Shown here piece after piece: positions 1,972 to 38,675 of a stretch of DNA of 38,675 bases. The translations under genes were made by a program, and so were the position numbers. Numbering within the stretch: the stretch's first letter is position 1; each line of letters opens with the position of its first letter. Below the pieces are notes generated by a model that did not search any database, was not told where the DNA came from, and saw only the letters and a list, made by a program, of their open reading frames with translations. Source of the stretch: a virus; the IMG/VR virus record IMGVR_UViG_3300046336_000201, positions 1 through 38,675 of that record; one strand, written 5' to 3'.

Positions 1972-3399
1972 ATGGCAAAACTAACACAAGAACTATTTTT
2001 AGAGAATGCTAGGCAGATCCATGGTACGCGCTATGATTACTCGAACACCCCTAGCCAGTTCACTGACACCACGACAGTATTGACCCACCTGGCAATTATG
2101 TGCCGAACCCACGGGCAATTCAATCAAACGCCTGCAGGACACATTCATAGAAAACAGGGCTGCCCTCAGTGCGCAACAGTAACAAAGTCTAAGAAATCTC
2201 CAACTAAGTGGACACTAGACATATTCTTGGAAAAAGCACGCACAACTCACGACAGCAAGTATGAATATTCTGCAGTAGAGTGGACAGACACCAGCAATTC
2301 AAAGACACGGGTTGTGATTACTTGCCCTATCCACGGGAATTTCTCACAAACTGCTGCAAGTCACGTCAGTGGCGCTGGGTGCCCAAAGTGTTCGGTCACA
2401 GGTACACTAACAAGTGTAGATTTCATCGAAAGTGTTGCTCGAGTACATGGCGATAGGTATGACTACACACGAGCACTGCTTGAGTGGACTGCTACGACAA
2501 AGACGGATTCTAAGGTGATGATCACTTGTAGAACGCATGGAGACTTCTCTCAGAAAATCGCCAACCATATTCACCTGAACAATGGCTGTCCAAAGTGTGC
2601 CAAAACTTCTCGGATCACCCAACAAGGGTTCTTAGATAAAGCACATACTATTCATGGTGATCAATATGACTACTCAAATGTTGTGTGGACACAACAAATC
2701 AACGTCAACAGTAAGATCACAATCAATTGCAGGACGCACGGACCATTCCTTCAAAATATCCGCAACCACACTGTAGGTAAGAATGGTTGCCCGACGTGTG
2801 CAGGCAAAACTAAACTCACAAACGAGTCGTTTATATCCAGAGCTCGTGAGATTCACGGGACCAAATACGACTATTCGCGTGTGTCCATAGGTGACGATTT
2901 CTTCGTCAACAAAACTAAACTCACCATCAGCTGTGAGAAGCATGGGGAATTCAACCAAACTGCGGCGAAACACATAACCGCGAAGAATGGCTGCCCTGGT
3001 TGCAGTGCTAGTAAAGGGGAGAGAGCTGTACAGGTGTGGTTGGATACTCATAAAATTGTGCACCAACCCCAGAAAACATTCGATGGTTGTATTAATACTC
3101 TCACTGGACGCAAGTTAAAATATGACTTCTATGTTCCTGAATATAACACGTGCATTGAATTCCACGGCCAGCAACACTACGAGGCTATATTGATAGGCAA
3201 CAATGATCAGGCTAACTGGACACCACAACATCACACACGTGCTCAAGTGGTATTCGATGAGCAGCGCCGTAGGGACCAAGCGAAAGTCCAATACTGTGCA
3301 GATAATGAAATTAAATTGTTGGTAATTGCATACACCGAACTCAATCGGAGTGATGAGCTGCTCGCTAAGTTTTTCAACACTGCAAGATGTGTTGTCTGA
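1972..3399 (+). CDS. Modular zinc-repeat homing endonuclease (EDxHD/VSR-like nuclease end)
   Basis: A 475-residue protein built from five tandem modules of about 65 residues. Each has the pattern F..A...HG..YDYS, then C..HG.F.Q....H and GCP.C, giving two Cys pairs and His residues likely to bind zinc and DNA. The last 130 residues hold a small nuclease domain with YDFYVPEYN, CIEFHGQQHY and a basic helix with QRRRDQ. This resembles the Vsr-related EDxHD homing endonucleases such as I-Bth0305I. It sits between terminase and tail tube on the opposite strand from terminase, as a free-standing mobile gene. There is no clear Shine-Dalgarno or TAAATA box. Two relatives lie at 26330-27992 and 30735-31943, with six and four modules. 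DNA cutting is inferred from the family. Confidence 0.8.
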   Translation: MAKLTQELFLENARQIHGTRYDYSNTPSQFTDTTTVLTHLAIMCRTHGQFNQTPAGHIHRKQGCPQCATVTKSKKSPTKWTLDIFLEKARTTHDSKYEYSAVEWTDTSNSKTRVVITCPIHGNFSQTAASHVSGAGCPKCSVTGTLTSVDFIESVARVHGDRYDYTRALLEWTATTKTDSKVMITCRTHGDFSQKIANHIHLNNGCPKCAKTSRITQQGFLDKAHTIHGDQYDYSNVVWTQQINVNSKITINCRTHGPFLQNIRNHTVGKNGCPTCAGKTKLTNESFISRAREIHGTKYDYSRVSIGDDFFVNKTKLTISCEKHGEFNQTAAKHITAKNGCPGCSASKGERAVQVWLDTHKIVHQPQKTFDGCINTLTGRKLKYDFYVPEYNTCIEFHGQQHYEAILIGNNDQANWTPQHHTRAQVVFDEQRRRDQAKVQYCADNEIKLLVIAYTELNRSDELLAKFFNTARCVV

Positions 3400-8812: not shown

Positions 8813-9175
8813 TGAAACTGATACAATATCTGATAGCTGAAGGGTTCTGGACCCGCAAACAACCTGTCAAACTGACACACTCCAATCACACTTGATGATA
8901 GAAAGCTAATATCCGCCGGCTTTCTGCTCGCTAATATCAAATTTCGAGAAGTCGCTACTGATGGTGGTGACCAAATCAACCAAGATGTTCTCAATGTTTA
9001 CGTTCGGGGTGCGCAAATTCATGGTATGAGATCAGAGGTATCCTTCTGGAAGAGCTCACCCAATCAATACCACTGCATCATTAATTACTACCGCGACCCT
9101 GCATCTACTCGGCCACTAACATCACGAGAACTCAAGTTTTCAACAGCAGAAGAGCTCTCACAGTCACTGAAATAG
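8812..9175 (+). pseudogene. Frameshifted small protein with MKLIQYLIAE start
   Basis: The first frame starts at TAATG with MKLIQYLIAEGFWTRKQPVK and stops at 8893. It is a capsid-targeting-like segment with I-A-E/G. A second frame, shifted by +1, then runs without a start codon from about 8876 to a TAG at 9173-9175. It reads TLDDRKLISAGFLL, NVYVRGAQIHGM and ELKFSTAEELSQSLK. Together they make about 120 residues of a plausible protein. The join lies between 8874 and 8893, around CACTTGATGA, so either an indel or a +1 frameshift at an ACT-TGA stop would connect them. Function unknown. Confidence 0.65.
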
Positions 9176-9252: not shown

Positions 9253-10188
9253 ATGTCAGTTGAAGTACTAAAGAAACTATTTGAAAGCGAAGTCCTGACA
9301 GATGATACCAAAGTGTCTATCAAGGAAGCTTTTGATCAGATCGTCACAGAAGCTCGTGAAGAAGCTACCGCTTCTGTTACCCAAGAGTTGACTGAGAAAT
9401 TCGCTCGTGAGTACGTAGCAGATCGTGATACTCTGATCGAATCAGTTGACCAATTGGTAACCGAAGCCCTCACAAAGCACGTGACAGAGCACAAAGCAGA
9501 CATCGAAAGTTTCCGTGATCTGGAAGCAGAATCTGCAGCATCGCTAGTAGAAGCTAAAGAAGAACTCTCTCAAACCGTCAAGGGTGATTTCAAGATGTTG
9601 ATCGAAAAGATCGATTCATTCTTGGACATTGTAATTGCAGAAGAGTTTGAAGAGATCAAAGCTGATCTGGTAGAGTCTCAACGCAATGCTCTCGGAGCTA
9701 AGATGTTTGAAGGTTTCCGCTCTGAATTTGAACAATTCTATGTTCAACAGACTGGCATCGCCGGCCAATTGGAAAAACTAACATCTGCGCTCCAAGAGTC
9801 ACAAGCAGAAAATGCTGCACTGAAAAAGTCGCTCAATGAGTCACAGCGCGCAAATACACTGACAACAATTTTATCATCACTTGGCGGCAAACCGAAACAA
9901 GTGATGGAGACGATTCTCGCAACTGTCTCCACAGACAAGCTGCAAGAAACATACGATCGATTTATTGACCGTGTGATCACAGAGAGTGCTAATATCAGCA
10001 CTAAAGTGGGAAGCAAAGAAACAGAAAAGGAAGTTCAAGTACTGTCTGAATCTAAGGTAGATCCCCGTAAGCTGGAACTGATGACAGGTGACACGACTCG
10101 CAATACCCGCAAGGTAGTAAGCGAATCGACATCTGGAATGTCAGAAGAAGAAAAACGTCGCTTGTTATCAAGCGCGGGTCTAATTTAA
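9253..10188 (+). CDS. 22: Prohead core scaffold protein (T4 gp22-like)
   Basis: A 311-residue, very acidic and almost wholly helical protein directly before the major capsid gene, the position of T4 gene 22. It starts MSVEVLKKLFESEVLTDD, with L-F-E/S as a possible protease site. Long coiled-coil stretches include ASVTQELTEKFAREYV and LEKLTSALQESQAENAALKK. Near the C-terminus are SSLGGKPKQVMETILATVS and SESTSGMSEEEKRRLLSSAGL. In T4 the core protein directs capsid shape and is later degraded by the gp21 protease. Several internal L/I-x-E sites (for example LVE, LTE) fit that fate. It has a strong late promoter and a good ribosome site. Confidence 0.75.
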   Translation: MSVEVLKKLFESEVLTDDTKVSIKEAFDQIVTEAREEATASVTQELTEKFAREYVADRDTLIESVDQLVTEALTKHVTEHKADIESFRDLEAESAASLVEAKEELSQTVKGDFKMLIEKIDSFLDIVIAEEFEEIKADLVESQRNALGAKMFEGFRSEFEQFYVQQTGIAGQLEKLTSALQESQAENAALKKSLNESQRANTLTTILSSLGGKPKQVMETILATVSTDKLQETYDRFIDRVITESANISTKVGSKETEKEVQVLSESKVDPRKLELMTGDTTRNTRKVVSESTSGMSEEEKRRLLSSAGLI

Positions 10189-11676: not shown

Positions 11677-13314
11677 ATGCTCACCCCACTCGCACCACCA
11701 CCATATGCCACATCTCTACTAGAAGAGAATCAGATTCAACTGTTGGAACCATTCAAAGGAGCCTCAGCACATCACCAAATGGCATGTATGGTGTGTAGTC
11801 ACGTGTGGTCAGCAACACCATTATCTAAGCGGCAGACACTTAAGAAGAACGGAGTCTCGGGGTGTCCAAAGTGCTACAACAACCGAAGATTATCCGCTAT
11901 CCAAGACGCGCAATTGCCAATATTGGATAAGTGGGCAAGCGAGGGGTTAGAGGTGCTTAGTCCTTTCACAGGTCTCAGACAAACAACCCACAAGTTATGG
12001 TTTTATAACAACAAGTGTGGTCATAAATTCGAAACTTACCCAGGAAATTTGATAAACCTGAACTCGGTATGTATTGTCTGCGGCATAAATGACCGCACCT
12101 CAGGTGTAACAGCGTGGTCGAAAGCTAATTCAGTTAAGTGGAGAGAGACAGCTCCCGCATGGGGATCATACAAAGCAATGGTATCCACACTGACTGAAGA
12201 GACTTATCGCAACTACAAACACATCATAAATCCGAACAACCTACCACGTGGTAGGGCTGGTGTCCAGGGTGCGTATCACTTAGATCACTTTGTCCCTACA
12301 AGATACTGCTTCGACAATAACATCCCCCCAGCCGTGTGCGCTGATGTGTCGAATTTGCAGATGTTGGGGTGGAGAGAAAATGTAGGATCTCGCCACAATA
12401 TCAAAGGTGTGATCCCCCCACTATTTTTCAAATATATTTCAGCAAATTCGACAGTCGAATACTTCGCGGATGTGTTACAAAGCATTTTCCCGTCCGGGCA
12501 AAAGTTTATTAGAGTCGGAGAGGTTGTGGTGACGTTTTTTGACCCCTCATCAAATCATGCAGTGGTTGTACTATCGATTCGAGATAAGAATGCTCATCGT
12601 CGCAATGCGCTAGTAACTTCTAAGGCGCTGCAGGCGGCTGGCGTCAAATATACACTATTATTTGAAGATGAATTTAACAATATTAATCTGCTGTCCGCAA
12701 AGTTAAAGCACTACACTCAATCGGGAACTCCTGCCAGGATTCATGCCCGACAGTGTACTATCCGAGAGTGTCAACCCGCCGACAAAAAGCGATTGCTGAA
12801 TAGTAATCACATACAAGGGAATGATACGTGCTCGGTATCTCTGGGTGCATACTTCGAAAATGTGTTGGTTGCGGTGATGACATTCTCTGCTCCACGGGTC
12901 GCGCTCGGGCAGAAGAATAAATCACCAACTGAAAAGCAAGGTGTGTGGGAATTAAGTAGATTCTGTACAGATGTTAATTACCGTATTCCCGGAATTGCAT
13001 CTAAGTTGTTGACCCACTTCAAGCGAACCCAACCCGAGTGGCAGCAGATATACAGCTTCGCAGACAAGAGATGGAGTGTGGGCAATATGTATACCACACT
13101 CGGGTTCAAATTAACGGTGGACAACCCACCATCTTATTTCTACGTCATAGAAGGCGTTCGCAAGCACAGGTGGAACTATCGCAAGGACAATCTCAAAAAG
13201 ATCCTCCCACAGTACAACCCTAAACTTACGGAATATGCTAACATGGAAGTGCATGGGTTTTGGAGAGTCTGGGATTGTGGCACACTAAAATTTGAAATGA
13301 CTCGAGATAGTTAA
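11677..13314 (+). CDS. Zinc-ribbon HNH endonuclease with GNAT-like C-terminal domain
   Basis: A 545-residue mobile-type protein after the capsid gene. The N-terminal third has two zinc ribbons, CMVCSHVW...GCPKC near 38-62 and CGHKFETY...CIVCG near 116-135. An HNH nuclease motif follows: HLDHFVPTRYCFDNNIPP near 200-217 and NLQMLGWRENVG near 227-238. Residues from about 365 form a separate domain with IRECQPADKKRLLNSNHIQG, ELSRFCTDVNYRIPGIASKL and FADKRWSVGNMYTTLGF. Its GIASKLL and NMY..LGF features look like an acetyltransferase (GNAT) fold. The same domain ends the next gene. I expect HNH cutting for homing. The role of the GNAT-like part is unknown. Confidence 0.82.
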   Translation: MLTPLAPPPYATSLLEENQIQLLEPFKGASAHHQMACMVCSHVWSATPLSKRQTLKKNGVSGCPKCYNNRRLSAIQDAQLPILDKWASEGLEVLSPFTGLRQTTHKLWFYNNKCGHKFETYPGNLINLNSVCIVCGINDRTSGVTAWSKANSVKWRETAPAWGSYKAMVSTLTEETYRNYKHIINPNNLPRGRAGVQGAYHLDHFVPTRYCFDNNIPPAVCADVSNLQMLGWRENVGSRHNIKGVIPPLFFKYISANSTVEYFADVLQSIFPSGQKFIRVGEVVVTFFDPSSNHAVVVLSIRDKNAHRRNALVTSKALQAAGVKYTLLFEDEFNNINLLSAKLKHYTQSGTPARIHARQCTIRECQPADKKRLLNSNHIQGNDTCSVSLGAYFENVLVAVMTFSAPRVALGQKNKSPTEKQGVWELSRFCTDVNYRIPGIASKLLTHFKRTQPEWQQIYSFADKRWSVGNMYTTLGFKLTVDNPPSYFYVIEGVRKHRWNYRKDNLKKILPQYNPKLTEYANMEVHGFWRVWDCGTLKFEMTRDS

Positions 13315-13735: not shown

Positions 13736-13870
13736 ATGAGATGCAGTAGTTGTGGTTCAGTCTTCACACATTGTGTGCTAAAAAAGCATAAATGGATGCT
13801 GGATAATCCTACCAGAACAGGCTGCCCGACCTGCAACAAAATATCATCTACGAAAGCCACACAAAAATGA
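13736..13870 (+). pseudogene. Zinc-ribbon fragment, probable lost N-terminus of the next gene
   Basis: A 44-residue frame, MRCSSCGSVFTHCVLKKHKW followed by GCPTC, has the Cys-pair spacing of the zinc ribbon at the start of the HNH gene at 11677. It ends in an ATGA overlap with the gene at 13867, so translation could be coupled. The open frame extends upstream for about 49 codons without a usable start. The simplest reading is one longer protein broken by a -1 shift at AAAAATGA. A small stand-alone ribbon protein is also possible. Confidence 0.5.
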
Positions 13871-15000
13871 ACATCGTCCAAGCGAATAAAAAATGGCCCT
13901 CAATAGAGGCAGCAGTTCAGAGAATTTCTGGAATCGCACTTGCAGACCCCACAAGCGCTTTTTCGCAATATTGCGCGACAGGTGTACACAGTAAAGTTGC
14001 GGTGCACTGTACCAAGAATTCAGAACACGGGTCTTGGCACACTCGCATCACATCACTGAAGGAAGGGCATGGCTGCCCTCACTGCGGCAAGAAGAAATCT
14101 GGTAAGACTCGTTCGCTTGGAGTGAAATCTGGGCAGACTTATGTAGATGAGTTGTACAGTAGAGTGGGGGGTAAGTTAATCACACTGTTAGCTGAAGGGG
14201 AGAGTGTGCCAGCGCTGAGAGTGACTTCTGAGTTGATTGTGATTATTGCAGATGTAGAGAAGTTTGGGCAAAATTTGGTTCCCAAGAAGTTAGTACAGAC
14301 GCTTATAGCAGAAAACCCAGGCGCCATTCTTTTTTGGTCAGATGAGTGGAAGGCTAATCAGGAGTTAATTGTTACAAAAATCGAACACATATCAAAACGC
14401 AGTAACCTCGATGTAATTTATGCTCGCAAATGCGAAGTACGAGAAATTACCAATAGAATGACTGCAGGGTTGTTGAATAAACATCACCTTCAGGGTTCAG
14501 TCGTAGCTCAGATCAACTTGGGACTATATCACGGTGAACACTTAGTTGCAGTACAAACATTCAGTTCACCTCGAATTCTCATGTCCCAGAATAAGGGGAA
14601 AGATACTACAGGGGAGTATGAACTGGTCCGATATGCTACTGATAGCGATTTCCGAGTGGTAGGTGGTGCGTCCAAGTTAATGAACCACTTTATCAAAGTC
14701 TGGAAACCTGTGAAGATTTTCTCCATGTCTGACAATCGGTGGAGTGCTGGTAATATGTACCAGCAGTTGGGGTTTTCTTGTGCTCGATCTAATAGTATCG
14801 AATACTACTATGTGGTAGATGGTGTACGTAAACATCGTTGGGGGTTCCGCAAGGATATTCTGAAGTTGAAAGTCCCCGACTATGATCCCATACGCACTGA
14901 GTATGACACAGTGTTCAACGTGATGGGCCATGACCGCGTTTGGGGTGCTGGTACCACCAAATGGGAATATGTTTTGACCAACTCGGAACTTGCTGTATAA
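13867..15000 (+). CDS. Zinc-ribbon protein with GNAT-like domain, homing-endonuclease relative
   Basis: A 377-residue protein. The N-terminus has a zinc ribbon (HCTKNSEHGSWHTRI...GCPHCGKKK near 48-77). From about residue 190 it carries the same GNAT-like domain as the gene at 11677, with VREITNRMTAGLLNKHHLQG, ELVRYATDSDFRVVGGASKL and MSDNRWSAGNMYQQLGF. It ends with a tryptophan-rich tail (DRVWGAGTTKWEYV). No HNH or other nuclease motif is visible, so it may be a degraded or dependent relative of its neighbour. It overlaps an upstream zinc-ribbon frame by 4 nt and lies just before GroES. Function is inferred only from likeness to the adjacent mobile gene. Confidence 0.7.
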   Translation: MNIVQANKKWPSIEAAVQRISGIALADPTSAFSQYCATGVHSKVAVHCTKNSEHGSWHTRITSLKEGHGCPHCGKKKSGKTRSLGVKSGQTYVDELYSRVGGKLITLLAEGESVPALRVTSELIVIIADVEKFGQNLVPKKLVQTLIAENPGAILFWSDEWKANQELIVTKIEHISKRSNLDVIYARKCEVREITNRMTAGLLNKHHLQGSVVAQINLGLYHGEHLVAVQTFSSPRILMSQNKGKDTTGEYELVRYATDSDFRVVGGASKLMNHFIKVWKPVKIFSMSDNRWSAGNMYQQLGFSCARSNSIEYYYVVDGVRKHRWGFRKDILKLKVPDYDPIRTEYDTVFNVMGHDRVWGAGTTKWEYVLTNSELAV

Positions 15001-26340: not shown

Positions 26341-27992
26341 CGGATAACTCCCGTTTGATTATTCGTTCAACATCGTTGATTTCTGTGTACTTAATCACCA
26401 GCAATCTATACCCTCTAAGATCAGCATACTTTTTCTTAACTTCATCACGTGCGATACTAGCAGCAAACTGAATTTCCGCCTCACGTTGCTTCTCGGGTGT
26501 ACGCCGTAGTTGAGAAGTTGCTGATTATGTAGTGTTGCTTACCATGAAACTCTATTAATAAATTGTGCTCAGGCAACCAAAAATCGTAGCGCAAGAGTCT
26601 GCCAGTGAGTGGGTTAATACAGTCGGCAAATTTGTGTTCTCTTTTGTACATTTGGCCAAGTGAATCTAACAGACGAACTATCCGCTCTTCACCTCTCGAT
26701 GGTGGAGTGCACATCTTACAGCCTGTTCCAGTATCTATGTGCCGCTTGACCGTTAATGAAAAAGGCCCATGCTTGGTACACTCAAGTGTAATATTTTCAC
26801 TTACGCTTGTTACGGCGAGGTGAGAATAATCATATGAATCACCATGCTTCTCTTGTGCTCTTACTAAGAACCGTTCTTGGGTCATTGGCGCATTCTTGGC
26901 GCACTTGGCACAACCAGCTTTATCAAGCAAATGCCAGTTGATTTGTGTCGAAAACTCGCCGTGTGTGCTGCAATTGACTTGAATTCTCGTTGAAATCCCG
27001 TCATGGAATTCAGCAGGAACCTTAGCATAGTCATATCGCCCACGGTGTATTTCCACTGCTCGGCGAATAAAGACATCTCTAGTCAATTTTCTATTCCCAG
27101 CACAATCCACACACCCAACAGCACTACCTCTCTTAGTATGATTGCTAGCAGTGATCAAAAAATCTCCGTGTATGGGGCAGCGCACAGATACCTTGTGGCT
27201 CATCGAAGCAAGTTGGTTTATGTGGGAATAATCATATTTGTTTCCGTGTTCCCTCTGAGCACCTGTTATGAAGTGTGCAATCCGTCTATCCTCCACCTCT
27301 CTTGATGATCTCAAATCGCTTCTGGATTCTCGTCGGCAATTAACACAACCAATGGTTTTATTCACAAATCTCTGGTACGACACCAACCAATCACCGTGAT
27401 TTATGCAAGTGACTGGCACCGCCTTGTCAATTCTACTAACAGTGTCTGGAAGATTGTTGTAGCTATATAGATCCCCATACAGTCTCAACCCATCCCGTAT
27501 AAACTTCATCCTAGTAAGTGGCTCACTAAGTGAACACCGTGGGCACCCACGTGCGCTTGCCAGGTGCCTGACTACAGTTGATGTAAACTGTCCATGATCT
27601 CGGCAGGTGATTATTATTGGTGTATTCTGCCCCATATCAAAGTTGCTTGGTATCTTAGAATAATCAAATTGATCACCATGTTTCGTAGTACAGTGAGTGA
27701 TGAATGATTGATGAGTCCAGGCTACATTACCTGCACAAGCCGGACACCCACTCCGAGTGCGCGTACTACTATGCGCTCGTGCTTGCGTAGTGAATTCTCC
27801 ATGCTTGCGGCAGATTACTACAACTTTATCAGAACCACTTGATATGTTGTGGACTAACGAGTAGTCATATCGATCGCCATGTGCGACACTACAGGCTGCC
27901 AAGAATTTTTCAAGTTTGGTGTTGCAGGTGGTTAAACTGCCATCATTACATGAGCTGAGCTCTAAGGATACACTCTGAGTTGGTTCAATCAT
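26330..27992 (-). pseudogene. Modular zinc-repeat homing endonuclease, frameshifted near its end
   Basis: The first frame gives 503 residues with six zinc modules (HG..YDYS, C..HG.F, GC..C), then RYDFWLPEHN and LIEFHGKQHY, the EDxHD-type nuclease end, and stops at 26481. In the +1 frame the expected C-terminus continues: TPEKQREAEIQFAASIARDE, then GYRLLVIKYTEIND and a TGA at 26330-26332. This matches the ends of the relatives at 1972 (LLVIAYTELN) and 30735 (LLIIKYNQLD). One extra or two missing bases around 26500-26525 explain the break. Without the shift the catalytic basic helix would be lost. It lies next to the sheath gene on the other strand. Confidence 0.8.
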
Positions 27993-30734: not shown

Positions 30735-31943
30735 ATGATAGTACGACTAAATTCTAATCAGTTCAAGCAACAGATATCCCAAAAAGCTTTTATCGAACAA
30801 GGTCGTGTGCACCACGGCGATTTGTATGACTACACAGACGTAACACACTGTGAAGACCAGTCGACTAAGGTCACTGTTGTGTGCCAGACTCACGGCCCGT
30901 GGACAAGTTCCTGGGCATCACACATACAATACAAACGCGGTTGCCCAACATGTGGCAGCAATCAGCAGTTACTATCTAGAGATAGTCAAGCAGTAGAATC
31001 TTTTGTTACCAAGTCACAAGCAATTCATGGAGTCAAATATGATTATACCAACACAACCCGCCAAGTGAACCTAGAGGGTAGTAGGTACAACTACCTATTC
31101 TCTGTTATGTGCCCAGAACACGGTGAGTGGTGGACTCGAAGCAAACATCACTTTCGAAAAGATCCGTCAGGATGCCCCAAGTGTGGGATTCGCAAACCCG
31201 CTAAGACAACTGAGTCGTGGATTGCCGCTGCTATATCAGTGCACGGAAACAAGTACACTTATGAGCGAGCAGAATTTGGTGACGGATTGTCTAAAATTAT
31301 CGTGACGTGTCCGACTCATGGAGATTTTGAGGTATATCCATATAGATTTACCAACAAACACAAGACAGGGTGTGCAGGGTGTGCACAAAAAGCTCAACAC
31401 ACTCGTTCTAGTTTCGTCACCAAAGCGACGACAGTACACTTTGGTAAGTATGATTATTCCCTTGTTGGGGAGTTTGCCAATATCAAGTCTAAGATACAAG
31501 TAGTTTGCCCCAAACACGGTGCGTTTACGACGACAGTGCAGCAACATGCAAATAGTCTGGTGGGATGCAAGAAATGTAAAGAGAGTAGGGGTGAGGCAAT
31601 TATATCACACATACTAAAACTCAAATCAATCAACTTCATCCAGGAGCACCGATTTGGCGACTGTCGTAATCCTATGACGAACAAATTACTACCATTTGAC
31701 TTCTGGTTACCCGACCACAACCTTTGTATAGAATTTCATGGTGTTCAGCACTACCAACCGAGTCACTTTGGGAGAAGCGCAGGTGCTCAACCGATGGACG
31801 CTGAAGTTGCATTCTTTCGTGGTGCTCAGAGAGATCGACTAAAGGAAGACTATTGTAGGTCTATGGGTATTGAACTGCTAATCATAAAGTATAATCAACT
31901 TGATGAAATTAGTGAGATTTTGGGTACACTTGGTGCTAAATAA
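30735..31943 (+). CDS. Modular zinc-repeat homing endonuclease (four modules)
   Basis: A 402-residue relative of the genes at 1972 and 26330. It has four zinc modules (for example GRVHHGDLYDYTDV with CQTHGPW and GCPTC), then a complete nuclease end: FGDCRNPMTNKLLPFDFWLP, LCIEFHGVQHYQPSHFG, a basic helix with RGAQRDRLKEDYC and LLIIKYNQLDE. The middle two modules are more divergent (EHGEWW instead of HG.F). It sits after the sheath gene, so sheath is flanked by such genes on both sides. It looks intact. DNA cleavage and homing are inferred from the family. Confidence 0.8.
   Translation: MIVRLNSNQFKQQISQKAFIEQGRVHHGDLYDYTDVTHCEDQSTKVTVVCQTHGPWTSSWASHIQYKRGCPTCGSNQQLLSRDSQAVESFVTKSQAIHGVKYDYTNTTRQVNLEGSRYNYLFSVMCPEHGEWWTRSKHHFRKDPSGCPKCGIRKPAKTTESWIAAAISVHGNKYTYERAEFGDGLSKIIVTCPTHGDFEVYPYRFTNKHKTGCAGCAQKAQHTRSSFVTKATTVHFGKYDYSLVGEFANIKSKIQVVCPKHGAFTTTVQQHANSLVGCKKCKESRGEAIISHILKLKSINFIQEHRFGDCRNPMTNKLLPFDFWLPDHNLCIEFHGVQHYQPSHFGRSAGAQPMDAEVAFFRGAQRDRLKEDYCRSMGIELLIIKYNQLDEISEILGTLGAK
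31935..31942 (+). promoter_or_regulatory. Late promoter motif (GCTAAATA)
   Basis: The box overlaps the stop of the preceding gene and lies 29 nt before the ATG at 31972. Confidence 0.55.
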
Positions 31944-35513: not shown

Positions 35514-35852
35514 ATGAATCAAATAGAAGTTATTAAAGCCATCCTCGCTGGTGAGGTATTAGACGTTAAGTGGTGGGATTCGGATTGGGGCGCATTTAAC
35601 AACGCAAATTTAAATGTTGAATTTGTTTTACACGCTTTTATTAGTCAATATGACCGATATTCTCTAGCTGAGTTCCGCATCAGACCCAAGGCAGTACGAT
35701 TCCAGACGCGAGCTTACTTGGTTGGAACAACTATATATGTATGGACCAGCTCCTGGGCGCAAACTCAAGAAGAAACAGCTTCGATGTATTCAAAAACAGA
35801 TGGTGGCTTTCGCTGGCTCGAAGAAACTCAAGAAACAGAGTACACAATATGA
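35514..35852 (+). CDS. Hypothetical 112-residue protein
   Basis: It starts MNQIEVIKAILAGEVLDVKW and is rich in Trp and aromatic residues (WWDSDWGAF, YVWTSSWAQTQEE, FRWLEETQETEY). The ribosome site AAGGAAC lies 8 nt upstream. It overlaps the next gene by 4 bp (ATGA). No family is recognised. The middle FRIRPKAVRFQTRAYLVG suggests two beta-strands. It is part of the run of small early-type genes from 34488. Confidence 0.6.
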   Translation: MNQIEVIKAILAGEVLDVKWWDSDWGAFNNANLNVEFVLHAFISQYDRYSLAEFRIRPKAVRFQTRAYLVGTTIYVWTSSWAQTQEETASMYSKTDGGFRWLEETQETEYTI

Positions 35853-36247
35853 TTAAAATCAACACACTACACACAATCGATGTAGGTGATTTTGACCAAT
35901 TGGTCGTGGACACATATGGTCGTGTTTACAATTTTCAACAACAAGATGGTTGTAAATCTCGTGGGTTGGAATATATCACAGTACCATCACCAGAAGAATA
36001 TTTTGGTGATTATGATAATGGCACAATTCCAGATGAAGTCAATGGCAAAGAGCGGGGCGTGAGTTTCAGCGCTTGGCTCGCCCGTGACCCAAAAGAATGG
36101 CACGGTATCCCAGATCAAAATACTCAGTGGTTTATCGATTTATTCTGGGCTCGAAATTTTTATCCGAGTGTTGATATGGTGATCAACGATCTGCATGCCA
36201 AAGGCTTATTGCCTGTGGGTGAGTACGCAATTAATATTGATTGGTAA
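35849..36247 (+). CDS. Hypothetical 132-residue protein
   Basis: It starts MIKINTLHTIDVGDFDQLVV and contains TYGRVYNFQQQDGCKSRGLE, YITVPSPEEYFGDYDNG and a helical part with WFIDLFWARNFYPSVDMVIN. The composition suggests a compact soluble alpha/beta protein. I do not recognise it. It overlaps the previous gene by ATGA and is followed 3 bp later by a zinc-ribbon gene, so all three are probably one operon. Confidence 0.6.
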   Translation: MIKINTLHTIDVGDFDQLVVDTYGRVYNFQQQDGCKSRGLEYITVPSPEEYFGDYDNGTIPDEVNGKERGVSFSAWLARDPKEWHGIPDQNTQWFIDLFWARNFYPSVDMVINDLHAKGLLPVGEYAINIDW

Positions 36248-36250
36248 ATT

Positions 36251-36442
36251 ATGATTAGAATTATTGACACCAAACCACATAAAAGTGTAGTCAAAGAAGT
36301 TGTTTGTAAGAACTGCGGTTCAACATTGGAATATACACCGTCTGATATCAAACGGGATTATTCAACAGATTACACTGGTGACAAAGATTATTATGATTTC
36401 ATTAAGTGTCCCTCATGTTCTCATGAAATTCTAGTGAAATAA
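36251..36442 (+). CDS. Small zinc-ribbon protein
   Basis: A 63-residue protein starting MIRIIDTKPHKSVVKEVVCK. Two Cys pairs, CKNCG at 19-23 and CPSCS at 53-57, are separated by about 30 residues, a typical zinc-ribbon spacing. Such proteins are common in T4-like phages; their role is unknown. It is the last gene before a tRNA-like element at 36456. Confidence 0.75.
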   Translation: MIRIIDTKPHKSVVKEVVCKNCGSTLEYTPSDIKRDYSTDYTGDKDYYDFIKCPSCSHEILVK

Positions 36443-36455
36443 TATGTAAGATTAA

Positions 36456-36556
36456 GGTTTCTTCGTTTAACACGGTAAGACCATTACCCTTCGATTGGTC
36501 AGAAAACAGGCGTCGCTGACTTGGTAATGAAATAGGTTCAAGCCCTATAGAGACCA
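36456..36556 (+). tRNA. tRNA-like gene with an insertion in the anticodon arm
   Basis: A full 7-bp acceptor stem (GGTTTCT 36456-36462 with AGAGACC 36549-36555, one G.T pair), a D-arm GTTT-AACACGGTA-AGAC (36465-36481) and a perfect T-arm ATAGG-TTCAAGC-CCTAT (36532-36548) are present. The anticodon stem ATTACC (36483-36488) pairs with GGTAAT (36523-36528) but encloses 34 nt instead of about 7. The insert has its own stem GTCAG/CTGAC. A repeated TTGGT (36495 and 36521) brackets about 26 nt. Without the insert the loop would read CTTCGAT, with anticodon TCG (Arg). No CCA is encoded. Confidence 0.7.
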
Positions 36557-36575
36557 CAATTATGAGATTTAAAAT

Positions 36576-36781
36576 ATGGCCAGTTTACGTGGTGAATTTT
36601 TAGAGTATTTGTCTGACGCTGTGGGGATTTTATTTTTGTGAACGAACCTTCGTTTATGTCTGAATTTGCGGGTGGTTTATGCAATGAATTGGTCGGCGTT
36701 AGTTTTTCAACATCCGGCGTAAAGATTGTGTATGTGCCGCTGGATGGACAACACGTAAGCAGCACCATAGAAGCCTATTGA
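36576..36781 (+). pseudogene. Small protein gene with a single frameshift in a G run
   Basis: The first frame starts MASLRGEFLEYLSDAVG and would stop soon after. The second, shifted by one, continues DFIFVNEPSFMSEFAGG, then LCNELVGVSFSTSGVKIVYV and ends EAY at 36781. Adding one G to the GGGG at about 36611 joins them into a 68-residue protein with normal alpha/beta character. No family is recognised. An intact second part might start at GTG 36640, giving 46 residues. Confidence 0.55.
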
Positions 36782-36881
36782 TATAATGATTGGGCATGCC
36801 AAGTGGGAACTCTGATCAATTAGTTGATCGCTGGGGTTACCACTATATCTAAAATTCTCAGTAGTTTTTCACTATTTGATG

Positions 36882-36909
36882 TTGACCTTACTCAAATTTG
36901 TAGTATAAT
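36882..36909 (+). promoter_or_regulatory. Sigma70-like promoter with ACCCTAAG element
   Basis: TTGACC (36882-36887), 16 nt, TATAAT (36904-36909), then TGACCCTAAGAGCAA. It precedes the small genes at 36949 and 37038. Confidence 0.85.
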
Positions 36910-36948
36910 TGACCCTAAGAGCAAGTGAAACACAAAAGAAACTTCAAA

Positions 36949-37041
36949 ATGTCAATCAAAGAATTTTTCCAGTGTATTATATTAGCAGCTATTTTTTCAA
37001 CGCCACTATTGGTCGAAATTGTCAAGGAACTAACAAAATGA
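36949..37041 (+). CDS. Very small membrane peptide
   Basis: A 30-residue frame, MSIKEFFQCIILAAIFSTPL followed by LVEIVKELTK. One membrane span covers about residues 6-24. It lies 40 nt after a strong promoter and overlaps the next gene by ATGA, which argues for real translation. The ribosome site is weak (AAAGAAA). It could also be a leader peptide that controls the next gene. Confidence 0.5.
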   Translation: MSIKEFFQCIILAAIFSTPLLVEIVKELTK

Positions 37042-37196
37042 GTAACACATTCAACGTCGTGTCTGAAGTTGGGGAATTTCCCACTGTGTTGTTTTCGTCT
37101 GAGGATTTTGATGAGTGTGTGAGATATATTGGTGACGGCTGTCTATGTGAGGATTTTGATGTGTTCATTCAAGACCCCGCCGGTATCATCTTTTAG
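37038..37196 (+). CDS. Small acidic protein
   Basis: A 52-residue protein starting MSNTFNVVSEVGEFPTVLFS and rich in Asp/Glu (SSEDFDECVRYIGDG, CLCEDFDVFIQDPAG). AAGGAAC lies 9 nt before the ATG. It overlaps the upstream membrane peptide by 4 bp. Such tiny acidic proteins in early phage regions sometimes mimic DNA or bind host enzymes, but nothing in the sequence proves that here. Confidence 0.6.
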   Translation: MSNTFNVVSEVGEFPTVLFSSEDFDECVRYIGDGCLCEDFDVFIQDPAGIIF

Positions 37197-37278
37197 TTTT
37201 AAATATTTTTCAAATAAATGCTGACTTATTTGACTTATAAATAAGCGTAGAAAGCGTAAACTTTTGGCCAAATCTAGG

Positions 37279-37292
37279 TACAATATACCCTA
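37279..37292 (+). promoter_or_regulatory. Probable early promoter -10 with ACCCTAAG element
   Basis: TACAAT (37279-37284) is followed by ATACCCTAAG and AGCAAA, closely like the promoters at 34448 and 36904. No good -35 lies at the right distance; TTGACT at 37230 is too far. Confidence 0.55.
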
Positions 37293-37321
37293 AGAGCAAA
37301 CGCAAAGTGAGAAATGCATAA

Positions 37322-37990
37322 ATGAAACAACAAATTAAAAATCGGTACTCAGACAAAGTTATTTTTGAATGTGAATTGCCTGCTGGGACCAAAAATCCAC
37401 TGCGTGAAGCAGTAATCAAAGCAGTTTCAGAGGGCGTGAGTCTGAAATATGCAAACTTGATAGATACAAATTTGTCAAGTGCAAAAATGGCAAATGCGGA
37501 CTTATATAGTGCAAACCTGAAAGGTGCAAATTTATCAAGCGCAAACTTGAAAGGTGCAAATTTATCAAGCGCAAACTTATCAGATGCAAACTTATCAGAT
37601 GCAAACTTGTCGAGTGCAAACTTATCAGATGCAAACCTGACGAGTGCAAACCTGACGAGTGCAAACCTGACGAGTGCAAACCTGAAAGTTGCGCAAATGG
37701 CAAAAGTGAACTTATCGAATGCAAACTTATCGAATGCAAACTTATCGAATGCAAACTTATCGAATGCAAACTTATCGAATGCAAAGTTAACTCGAGCAGA
37801 TTTGTCCTCTGCAAAACTGAAAGATGCAAAACTGAAAGATGCAGATTTGACAGGTGCATACCTAACAAAAGCAAATTTAACAGGTGCAAACTTGGAAGGT
37901 GTGATTGGATATACCAAAGTATCCGAAGCAGCGACCACGCCAGGAAAATCGGATGAGTGGATGAAGTTATTCAAAATTTTAGTAAAATAA
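37322..37990 (+). CDS. Pentapeptide-repeat protein
   Basis: A 222-residue protein. After a 40-residue head (MKQQIKNRYSDKVIFECELP) come about 31 tandem A(N/D)Lxx units from residue 41 to 195, such as ANLSS, ANLSD and ANLTS, predicted to coil into a right-handed square beta-helix. A short helical tail follows (SDEWMKLFKILVK). Some members, such as MfpA and Qnr, mimic DNA and bind gyrase; whether this one does is unknown. The break AQMAKVN near 124-130 may make a kink. The DNA itself is repetitive (15-nt units). It follows an early-type promoter. Confidence 0.93.
   Translation: MKQQIKNRYSDKVIFECELPAGTKNPLREAVIKAVSEGVSLKYANLIDTNLSSAKMANADLYSANLKGANLSSANLKGANLSSANLSDANLSDANLSSANLSDANLTSANLTSANLTSANLKVAQMAKVNLSNANLSNANLSNANLSNANLSNAKLTRADLSSAKLKDAKLKDADLTGAYLTKANLTGANLEGVIGYTKVSEAATTPGKSDEWMKLFKILVK
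37631..37780 (+). repeat. 15-nt tandem repeats inside the pentapeptide gene
   Basis: GCAAACCTGACGAGT occurs three times exactly (37631-37675) and GCAAACTTATCGAAT four times exactly (37721-37780). Such perfect units in a coding region suggest recent expansion by slippage or recombination. Confidence 0.9.
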
Positions 37991-38035
37991 ACTGTTGACT
38001 TATTCGAATAAATGTTGATAATGGGGTCTAAGTAG
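37984..38035 (+). promoter_or_regulatory. Repeated 52-nt early promoter module, copy 1
   Basis: TTGACT (37995-38000), 16 nt, GATAAT (38017-38022), then GGGGTCTAAGTAG. The whole 52 nt recur exactly at 38398-38449. It directly precedes the structured RNA at 38041. Confidence 0.8.
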
Positions 38036-38040
38036 AGATT

Positions 38041-38205
38041 TTGCACTAAAATCTGAACATAGTAAACGATAGCTTAAATAGTAGAGCTAGTACAAAGGTA
38101 GTGGGAAATATTAGCTATAAAGCCCATGAGAATAGTACGACCTGTAATCATCAGGTGGTAGTTGGTGCGAAACCAACCGAGTACTGTGTTTAGATTTTAG
38201 CGCAA
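38041..38205 (+). ncRNA. Structured RNA 1, tRNA-like with a 24-nt closing stem
   Basis: CTAAAATCTGAACATAGTA (38046-38064) pairs over 19 bp (two G.U) with TACTGTGTTTAGATTTTAG (38182-38200). After one mismatch, TTGC and GCAA add 4 bp. Inside are a D-arm-like AGCT-TAAATAGTAG-AGCT, a TGGG...CCCA hairpin, an arm ACCTG-TAATCAT-CAGGT with a 7-nt loop, a 4-nt GGTA spacer and a T-arm-like GTTGG-TGCGAAA-CCAAC. No open reading frame of note is present. It lies about 19 nt after the promoter -10 box. The order of arms is that of a tRNA, but the closing stem is far too long. Confidence 0.6.
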
Positions 38206-38213
38206 TTCTTGTG

Positions 38214-38388
38214 AAATAAATTCTGAAAGAGTGGTTGCAAGGCAGCCAACTTCGTGCGGGCATAGATTAGTAGACTCCTAATTAGTATTGAGGGTCTGTG
38301 CCGCGGTAGGAGGTAATATTACCTATCGAGAAATCCACTAAGTTGTTAGGGTTCGATCTCCCTTTACCCGCTCTTTCAGAATTTATTT
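38214..38388 (+). ncRNA. Structured RNA 2, tRNA-like with a 21-bp closing stem
   Basis: AAATAAATTCTGAAAGAG (38214-38231) pairs perfectly with CTCTTTCAGAATTTATTT (38371-38388), and TGG/CCG extends the stem. A possible D-arm GTTG-CAAGGCAGC-CAAC follows at 38234-38250. Then comes a long arm, GCGGGCATAGA with TCTGTGCCGC, topped by ATTAG-TAGACTC-CTAAT, then a palindrome AGGTAATATTACCT and an AGGG-TTCGATCT-CCCT element like a T-arm with one extra base. CAACTT and AAGTTG could also pair across the middle. Function unknown. Confidence 0.5.
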
Positions 38389-38397
38389 TTCAACTTG

Positions 38398-38449
38398 AAA
38401 ATAAACTGTTGACTTATTCGAATAAATGTTGATAATGGGGTCTAAGTAG
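38398..38449 (+). promoter_or_regulatory. Repeated 52-nt early promoter module, copy 2
   Basis: Exact copy of 37984-38035, with TTGACT at 38409-38414 and GATAAT at 38431-38436. It precedes the tRNA-like RNA at 38465. Confidence 0.8.
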
Positions 38450-38464
38450 TTAGAAATGTAAAAT

Positions 38465-38572
38465 ATTTTCAAATCAAAGTTTATAGCTCATTGGTAGAGC
38501 AGTCGGAGCGGCGTTCAATTGCTATCCCATTAGATGGAGGTTCAAGTCCTTTTTAAAATTTGATTTGAAAAT
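38465..38572 (+). tRNA. tRNA-like RNA 3 with extended acceptor stem
   Basis: ATTTTCAAATCAAA (38465-38478) pairs 14 of 14 with TTTGATTTGAAAAT (38559-38572). After a G-A mismatch, TTTA and TAAA add 4 bp. Then come TA and a canonical D-arm GCTC-ATTGGTA-GAGC (38486-38500) with A after it, and a T-arm GGAGG-TTCAAGT-CCTTT (38536-38552). The 34 nt between hold an arm AGCGG-CGTTCAA-TTGCT (7-nt loop, but G instead of T at position 33) and extra bases. A mature tRNA would need an acceptor of only 7 bp, so it is either a precursor or a tRNA mimic. Confidence 0.6.
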
Positions 38573-38588
38573 TTTGGTAAAATAATTG

Positions 38589-38617
38589 TTGACTTATATA
38601 AATAAAGCATATATAAT
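38589..38617 (+). promoter_or_regulatory. Sigma70-like promoter at the right end
   Basis: TTGACT (38589-38594), 17 nt, TATAAT (38612-38617). It precedes the gene that starts at 38647. Confidence 0.8.
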
Positions 38618-38646
38618 AGACAGATAGCAAATAAAGAGATCAAGAA

Positions 38647-38675
38647 ATGATTTTGAATTCGTATAATACAGGAAG
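38647..38675 (+). CDS. Start of an early gene cut by the window edge
   Basis: ATG with AAAGAGAT upstream opens a frame MILNSYNTG that runs off the window. It lies 29 nt after a good promoter. Too short to identify. Confidence 0.4.

Follow-up and report, generated by a model that had tools for sequence, protein, structure and literature searches.

Long-stem RNA elements in a jumbo phage fragment and their likely kinship with stalked tRNAs of XacN1-type phages

RNase III acts in the processing of the leader:trailer stems of bacterial precursor ribosomal RNA (pre-rRNA). These stems, in which a long leader and trailer pair around the mature RNA (PMC10250234), belong to the described systems closest to the locus presented here, together with transfer RNA (tRNA; RF00005), transfer-messenger RNA (tmRNA), standard or permuted (RF04321), which combines a tRNA-like end with a large extra domain, and GOLLD and ROOL, large, structured and as yet unexplained RNAs that occur close to phage tRNA islands (PMC12286853). 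The reason for the presence of tRNAs in phages is a matter of continuing debate, and RNAs such as those described below escape tRNA finders. The open-licence literature yielded no report of extended acceptor stems or leader:trailer helices in phages, nor of interrupted phage tRNAs. The stretch of DNA analysed here (the window; IMG/VR record IMGVR_UViG_3300046336_000201, 38,675 nucleotides (nt)) contains, between positions 37984 and 38617, three inverted repeats which close the non-coding elements E1, E2 and E3 with stems of 24, 26 and 22 base pairs (bp). This IMG/VR fragment is part of a jumbo myovirus related to the Xanthomonas jumbo phage XacN1; its capsid protein is 58% identical to that of XacN1 and 53% identical to those of the Stenotrophomonas phages CM1 and RAS14. 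XacN1-type phages carry a set of stalked RNAs that has not been described before, and the E1–E3 array probably belongs to it as a divergent member. Its components are as follows.

37984–38035, plus strand: predicted promoter, copy 1; 52-nt repeat identical to 38398–38449, with TTGACT-N16-GATAAT, a TTCGAA palindrome inside the spacer and a promoter-scan match at 37995–38022
38041–38205, plus strand: E1, tRNA-like RNA; 24-bp stem 38041–38064/38182–38205 with 1 mismatch, D-arm-like hairpin 38072–38087, T-arm-like hairpin 38161–38177
38209–38393, plus strand: E2, long-stem RNA; 26-bp stem 38209–38234/38368–38393 with 1 mismatch, T-arm-like hairpin 38347–38364 with an 8-nt loop
38398–38449, plus strand: predicted promoter, copy 2; identical over 52 nt to 37984–38035
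38462–38575, plus strand: E3, tRNA-like RNA; 22-bp stem 38462–38483/38554–38575 with 2 mismatches, D-arm 38486–38500, T-arm 38536–38552, no canonical anticodon loop

In 1000 dinucleotide shuffles of 37984–38617 (634 bases) one stem of this quality arose in 7 cases and two in none, and the stem array is confirmed as a real, RNA-level feature. The long closing stems claimed in an initial annotation of this DNA thus hold; for the second element the stem is likewise real, but the proposed span (38214–38388) is the core of a wider element. The stems differ in sequence from one another. Whole-element folding z-scores are −7.5, −5.7 and −1.9 for E1, E2 and E3, and fall to −3.7, −0.4 and +0.2 when the closing stems are removed; the stems therefore supply most of the folding signal, and the body of E1 folds better than its shuffles, which is not the case for E2 and E3. 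A T-arm-like hairpin adjoins the 3′ strand of all three closing stems. A D-arm-like hairpin is plainly visible in E1 and E3 and questionable in E2; as regards the full arrangement of D-arm and T-arm flanking the closing stem, E3 is a clear case, E1 a likely one and E2 a doubtful one. The earlier description of D-arm- and T-arm-like hairpins around abnormal middles accordingly stands except for the D-arm of E2: the middles are abnormal throughout, and an anticodon arm with a 7-nt loop is absent from the folds of all three. No open reading frame of at least 60 amino acids was found in 38041–38617, apart from a 6-base overlap with a frame antisense to the pentapeptide gene. A reading of E1–E3 as terminators was rejected, the scan having given no terminator-like site there.

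E1 and E3 each lie directly downstream of one copy of the 52-nt promoter, as had been noted initially, and the two copies are identical over their whole length. The TTGACT-N16-GATAAT core occurs twice in the window at up to three mismatches, against 0 expected. Since the overall σ70 scan remained at shuffle level (8 sites vs. 7.3 expected), it is the identity of the repeat, together with its location, that carries the promoter assignment. E2 follows E1 after a gap of 3 nt and is probably co-transcribed with it. A third, similar promoter at 38589–38617 heads into the next gene.

Pairing between leader and trailer was measured at 361 tRNAs called by ARAGORN in related contigs and XacN1, several of the relatives having about 20 to 60 tRNA matches each. 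In 14 of them the acceptor stem is extended outward by about 11–17 bp into what we call a stalk; it is present on 13 of 52 tRNAs lacking an encoded CCA and on 1 of 309 CCA-encoding tRNAs, counts which are not independent because some contigs are near duplicates. In the single CCA-encoding case the CCA letters form part of the helix. A fifteenth stalked tRNA is supplied by RAS14, in which a stalked tRNA-Pro lies at 297373–297477; 14 of the 15 are without an encoded CCA. The stalk sets in right where the tRNA ends. Among the 15 tRNAs, compensatory changes occur at 12 of the 13 extension pairs, with a covariation score of 0.72 compared to 0.19 for shuffled and 0.13–0.19 for slid alignments. All 15 have G-C at pair 2, and 12 of 15 have G·U at pair 11 with the G always on the 5′ side. 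The covariance analysis in related phages, suggested by the initial annotation as a check, thus came out positive for stems of the same kind, the stems of E1–E3 themselves lying outside its coverage. Elsewhere such stalks are rare: none was found at the tRNAs examined in X1, CBB, MIJ3, SCTP-2, Vibrio 2.275.O and an uncultured 735-kb phage, several of which carry many CCA-less tRNAs.

A fourth element of the window enters the comparison with tRNAs:

36456–36556, plus strand: tRNA gene without CCA; 40.8 bits with RF00005, 19.6 bits with the model R1 (see below), no long stem

ARAGORN called no tRNA in the window and missed all four elements. With the Rfam tRNA model (gathering score 29 bits), the 36456 element scored above and E3 (38477–38560, 27.4 bits) below the threshold, and no match was obtained for E1 or E2. 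A covariance model, R1, was built from the 15 stalked tRNAs of the relatives only and contains no sequence of the window. Run unfiltered on 35700–38675 (2976 bases), it placed exactly the four elements at the top of the plus strand, E3 with 30.7 bits (E = 4.6e-6), E1 with 19.7 (E = 0.002), the 36456 element with 19.6 and E2 with 17.7, the next match outside them reaching 8.9 bits; in a filtered search of the whole 38.7-kb record no element passed E = 0.01. The link to the stalked tRNAs of the relatives is firm for E3, moderate for E1 and for the 36456 element and weak for E2, and to this graded extent the grouping of the four as tRNA-like RNAs, proposed initially, is supported. However, a helix continuous with the acceptor stem and at least 19 bp long, as in all stalked tRNAs of XacN1-type phages, is found in E1–E3 and is absent from the 36456 element. 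Pairwise alignments of the long-stem bodies were short and gappy and revealed a weak likeness (z = 5.9 for E1–E2, lower for the others), which was not used as proof of shared descent. Taken as tRNAs, E1 and E3 have their D-arm-like and T-arm-like hairpins in the right order, the T-arm bordering the closing stem, but E1–E3 deviate by a closing stem of 22–26 bp instead of 7, the missing canonical anticodon arm and the missing CCA.

Stalks are not restricted to tRNAs. A scan of the arrays of the relatives gave 57 long stems, compared with 6 when the sequence was shuffled locally; the 57 include both strands of some elements as well as the stalked tRNAs. Stalked RNAs of 130–220 nt are found in XacN1, RAS14 (three) and the relatives G018, G022 and G032, several of them with the outer letters (A)AGUU/AAUU(U), and many non-tRNA stalks consist of about 11–13 bp, one mismatch and a further 8–12 bp. 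In the RNAs of G018 (150 nt) and G022 (220 nt) a T-arm-like hairpin lies by the stem, as in E1–E3. The XacN1 representative (199 nt, 36656–36854) is located within an unannotated 2.5-kb gap of the published genome, and a search for a sequence homologue of it found none. A covarying terminal helix on CCA-less tRNAs and unknown RNAs would offer a handle on the making of these RNAs and on what phage tRNA islands contain, and it is directly testable in the cultured phages RAS14 and XacN1.

In XacN1, RAS14, X1 and G018, GOLLD is part of the same arrays, but neither GOLLD nor ROOL matches E1–E3 or the scanned 130–220-nt stalked RNAs of XacN1, RAS14, G018 and G032. Permuted tmRNA matches are present in the arrays of XacN1 and G016. 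An Rfam scan of the window gave no GOLLD, ROOL or tmRNA match. The architecture of the pre-rRNA processing stems is comparable, whereas the helices described here surround phage tRNAs and small RNAs, and the phage records yielded no RNase III gene.

Several side observations concern these arrays. The XacN1 gap (36560–39053; L227 8061–10553) also contains expanded tRNA-like sequences, a GOLLD match and the permuted tmRNA match, whose tag reads ANANTFDYALAA by eye. RAS14, a cultured Stenotrophomonas phage, carries an unannotated row of stalked RNAs (L228 8867–9909 and 12957–13155), one of them just downstream of GOLLD (12515–12940); individual RNAs span 8976–9151, 9702–9881 and 12957–13155. The tRNA array of G018 includes a group I intron match (L108 867–1148, 61.5 bits).

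From the computed stems, promoter repeat, likeness to the relatives' stalked tRNAs and covariation of their stalks we infer transcription, processing and a possible role of E1–E3 along the following lines. With about even confidence, we consider them to be promoter-driven non-coding RNAs of an XacN1-type jumbo phage in which the stalk serves maturation or protection. They would be transcribed from the dedicated σ70-like promoters, upon which the 5′ leader and the 3′ trailer would pair and prolong the acceptor stem, giving a single helix of 22–26 bp; E1 and E3 would be tRNA-derived and E2 a stem-capped RNA whose tRNA features are weaker. This helix might hold both RNA ends in a double-stranded state, thereby blocking normal end trimming. 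A nuclease specific for double strands, such as host RNase III, would probably open it, the host enzyme being the first candidate because no phage counterpart was found. Having no usable anticodon arm, E1–E3 probably act outside decoding; they may be decoys, regulators or relics. In the true tRNAs of the relatives, the stalk would be cut and the CCA subsequently supplied by the phage CCA-adding enzyme. This sequence of events is favoured by the enzymes encoded in these phages: a nucleotidyltransferase of the CCA-adding type, named by best match with NCBIfam scores below the curated cut-offs, is present in 9 of 15 phage records and an RNA ligase that exceeds the cut-off of its family likewise in 9 of 15, and XacN1 is reported to encode a CCA-adding enzyme, a tRNA-His guanylyltransferase and the tRNA-repair pair Pnkp/Hen1 (PMC5852040).

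Several points weigh against this assignment. No RNase III gene was found in 18 phage records. Homologues of E1–E3 were found neither by a DNA search of 35700–38675 in phages nor in 21 related contigs, which yielded only a different promoter type, and searching viral contigs for the exact 52-nt promoter gave none either; two contigs with proteins identical to those of the window stop before the E1–E3 region. The measured covariation is that of the relatives' stalks. The stems of E1–E3 also lack the outer AGU/AUU signature (A-U, G·U and U-A at bp 12–10) and the G-C at bp 2. The R1 score of E2 (17.7 bits) is nearly equalled by the 15.8 bits of the minus strand, and its support therefore comes mainly from the stem. 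Finally, the CCA rule is not universal, as two of three stalked tRNAs in the Sinorhizobium phage Phosso encode CCA. Its stalks are also devoid of the XacN1-type outer pairs and the bp-2 G-C; stalks were located at L267 1198–1272, 4817–4902 and 7978–8073 and at L269 2161–2270, three sharing an outer GAUGUG/CACAUC. This outer sequence suggests that stalk signatures might be phage-specific.

A broader scenario, which we put forward tentatively and hold to be possible although doubtful, is that XacN1-type phages run an RNA maturation route of their own. The stalk would mark CCA-less tRNAs and the undescribed 130–220-nt RNAs, with a signature that may vary by phage; a specific nuclease would release them, and CCA-adding enzyme and ligases would finish the products including interrupted tRNAs. 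The row in the window would then be a divergent, promoter-driven outpost with non-decoding, tRNA-derived RNAs.

An alternative, in our view unlikely, is that E1–E3 are tRNA mimics acting as decoys for host tRNA-cutting defences, whose bodies are bound or cut instead of essential tRNAs and whose stems confer exonuclease resistance. The retained tRNA arms, the replaced anticodon region and the dedicated promoters would fit, and the Pnkp/Hen1 pair of XacN1 and the frequent RNA ligases imply that tRNA cutting plausibly matters for these phages. Phage tRNAs are, moreover, reported to evade tRNA-targeting defences (PMC10264068, PMC11555353). However, the usual target, the anticodon loop, is missing in E1–E3, and in the relatives such a stem encloses ordinary tRNAs as well as RNAs that are not tRNAs; the long stem is therefore no mark of mimicry, which weakens the decoy reading. 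Decay of stalked tRNA genes into degenerated bodies of no present role is distinctly unlikely: it would explain the shuffle-level folding of the E2 and E3 bodies and the poor tRNA scores of E1 and E2, but neutral decay should wear stems as fast as bodies, whereas stems of 22–26 bp with 1–2 mismatches persist beside altered bodies and two of the elements have identical promoters.

Very improbable for E1–E3 is an interruption of tRNA genes by short inserts in their middles, after whose excision the halves would be ligated into working tRNAs. The 36456 element itself looks like such a gene, an interrupted tRNA-Arg(UCG) separate from the long-stem set: removal of 27 nt (36496–36522) from its anticodon loop, with insert ends ambiguous by a few bases, gives TTACC-CTTCGAT-GGTAA, a canonical tRNA-Arg(TCG) arm with a 7-nt loop. 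Among the expanded tRNA-like sequences of these phages, 6 of 12 rejoin to a canonical arm compared to 0.17 expected from shuffled middles, including Lys(TTT), Asn(GTT), Tyr(GTA) and Gly(TCC), with a similar pattern in several relatives, and these phages often encode RNA ligases. For E1–E3, in contrast, no rejoined form was found, and with 27–73 nt the inserts do not reach the length of group I introns. Introns are not mentioned in the main text of the XacN1 paper. Insert-bearing genes with 27–73 nt in the anticodon loop are located at 36456–36556 of the window and at L120 6280–6427, L214 3986–4114, L109 896–1014 and L209 1434–1537 (minus strand). That the stems are DNA-level inverted repeats of mobile-element ends, cruciforms or packaging signals without RNA function is extremely improbable and, although long inverted repeats are present in the phage, largely refuted in the relatives, where the stalk starts at the tRNA ends and its oriented G·U pair makes sense only as RNA, and the stem sequences vary among the elements.

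Elsewhere in the window, a second type of promoter, located at 36882–36909 and with GACCCTAAGAGCAA behind it, precedes small genes and recurs in that position in the relative G006 with 87% capsid identity (L123 18200–18260, 19330–19380 and 19790–19830). Five HNH/homing-endonuclease-like genes (1972–3399, 11677–13314, 13867–15000, 26481–27992 and 30735–31943) are scattered between its virion genes.
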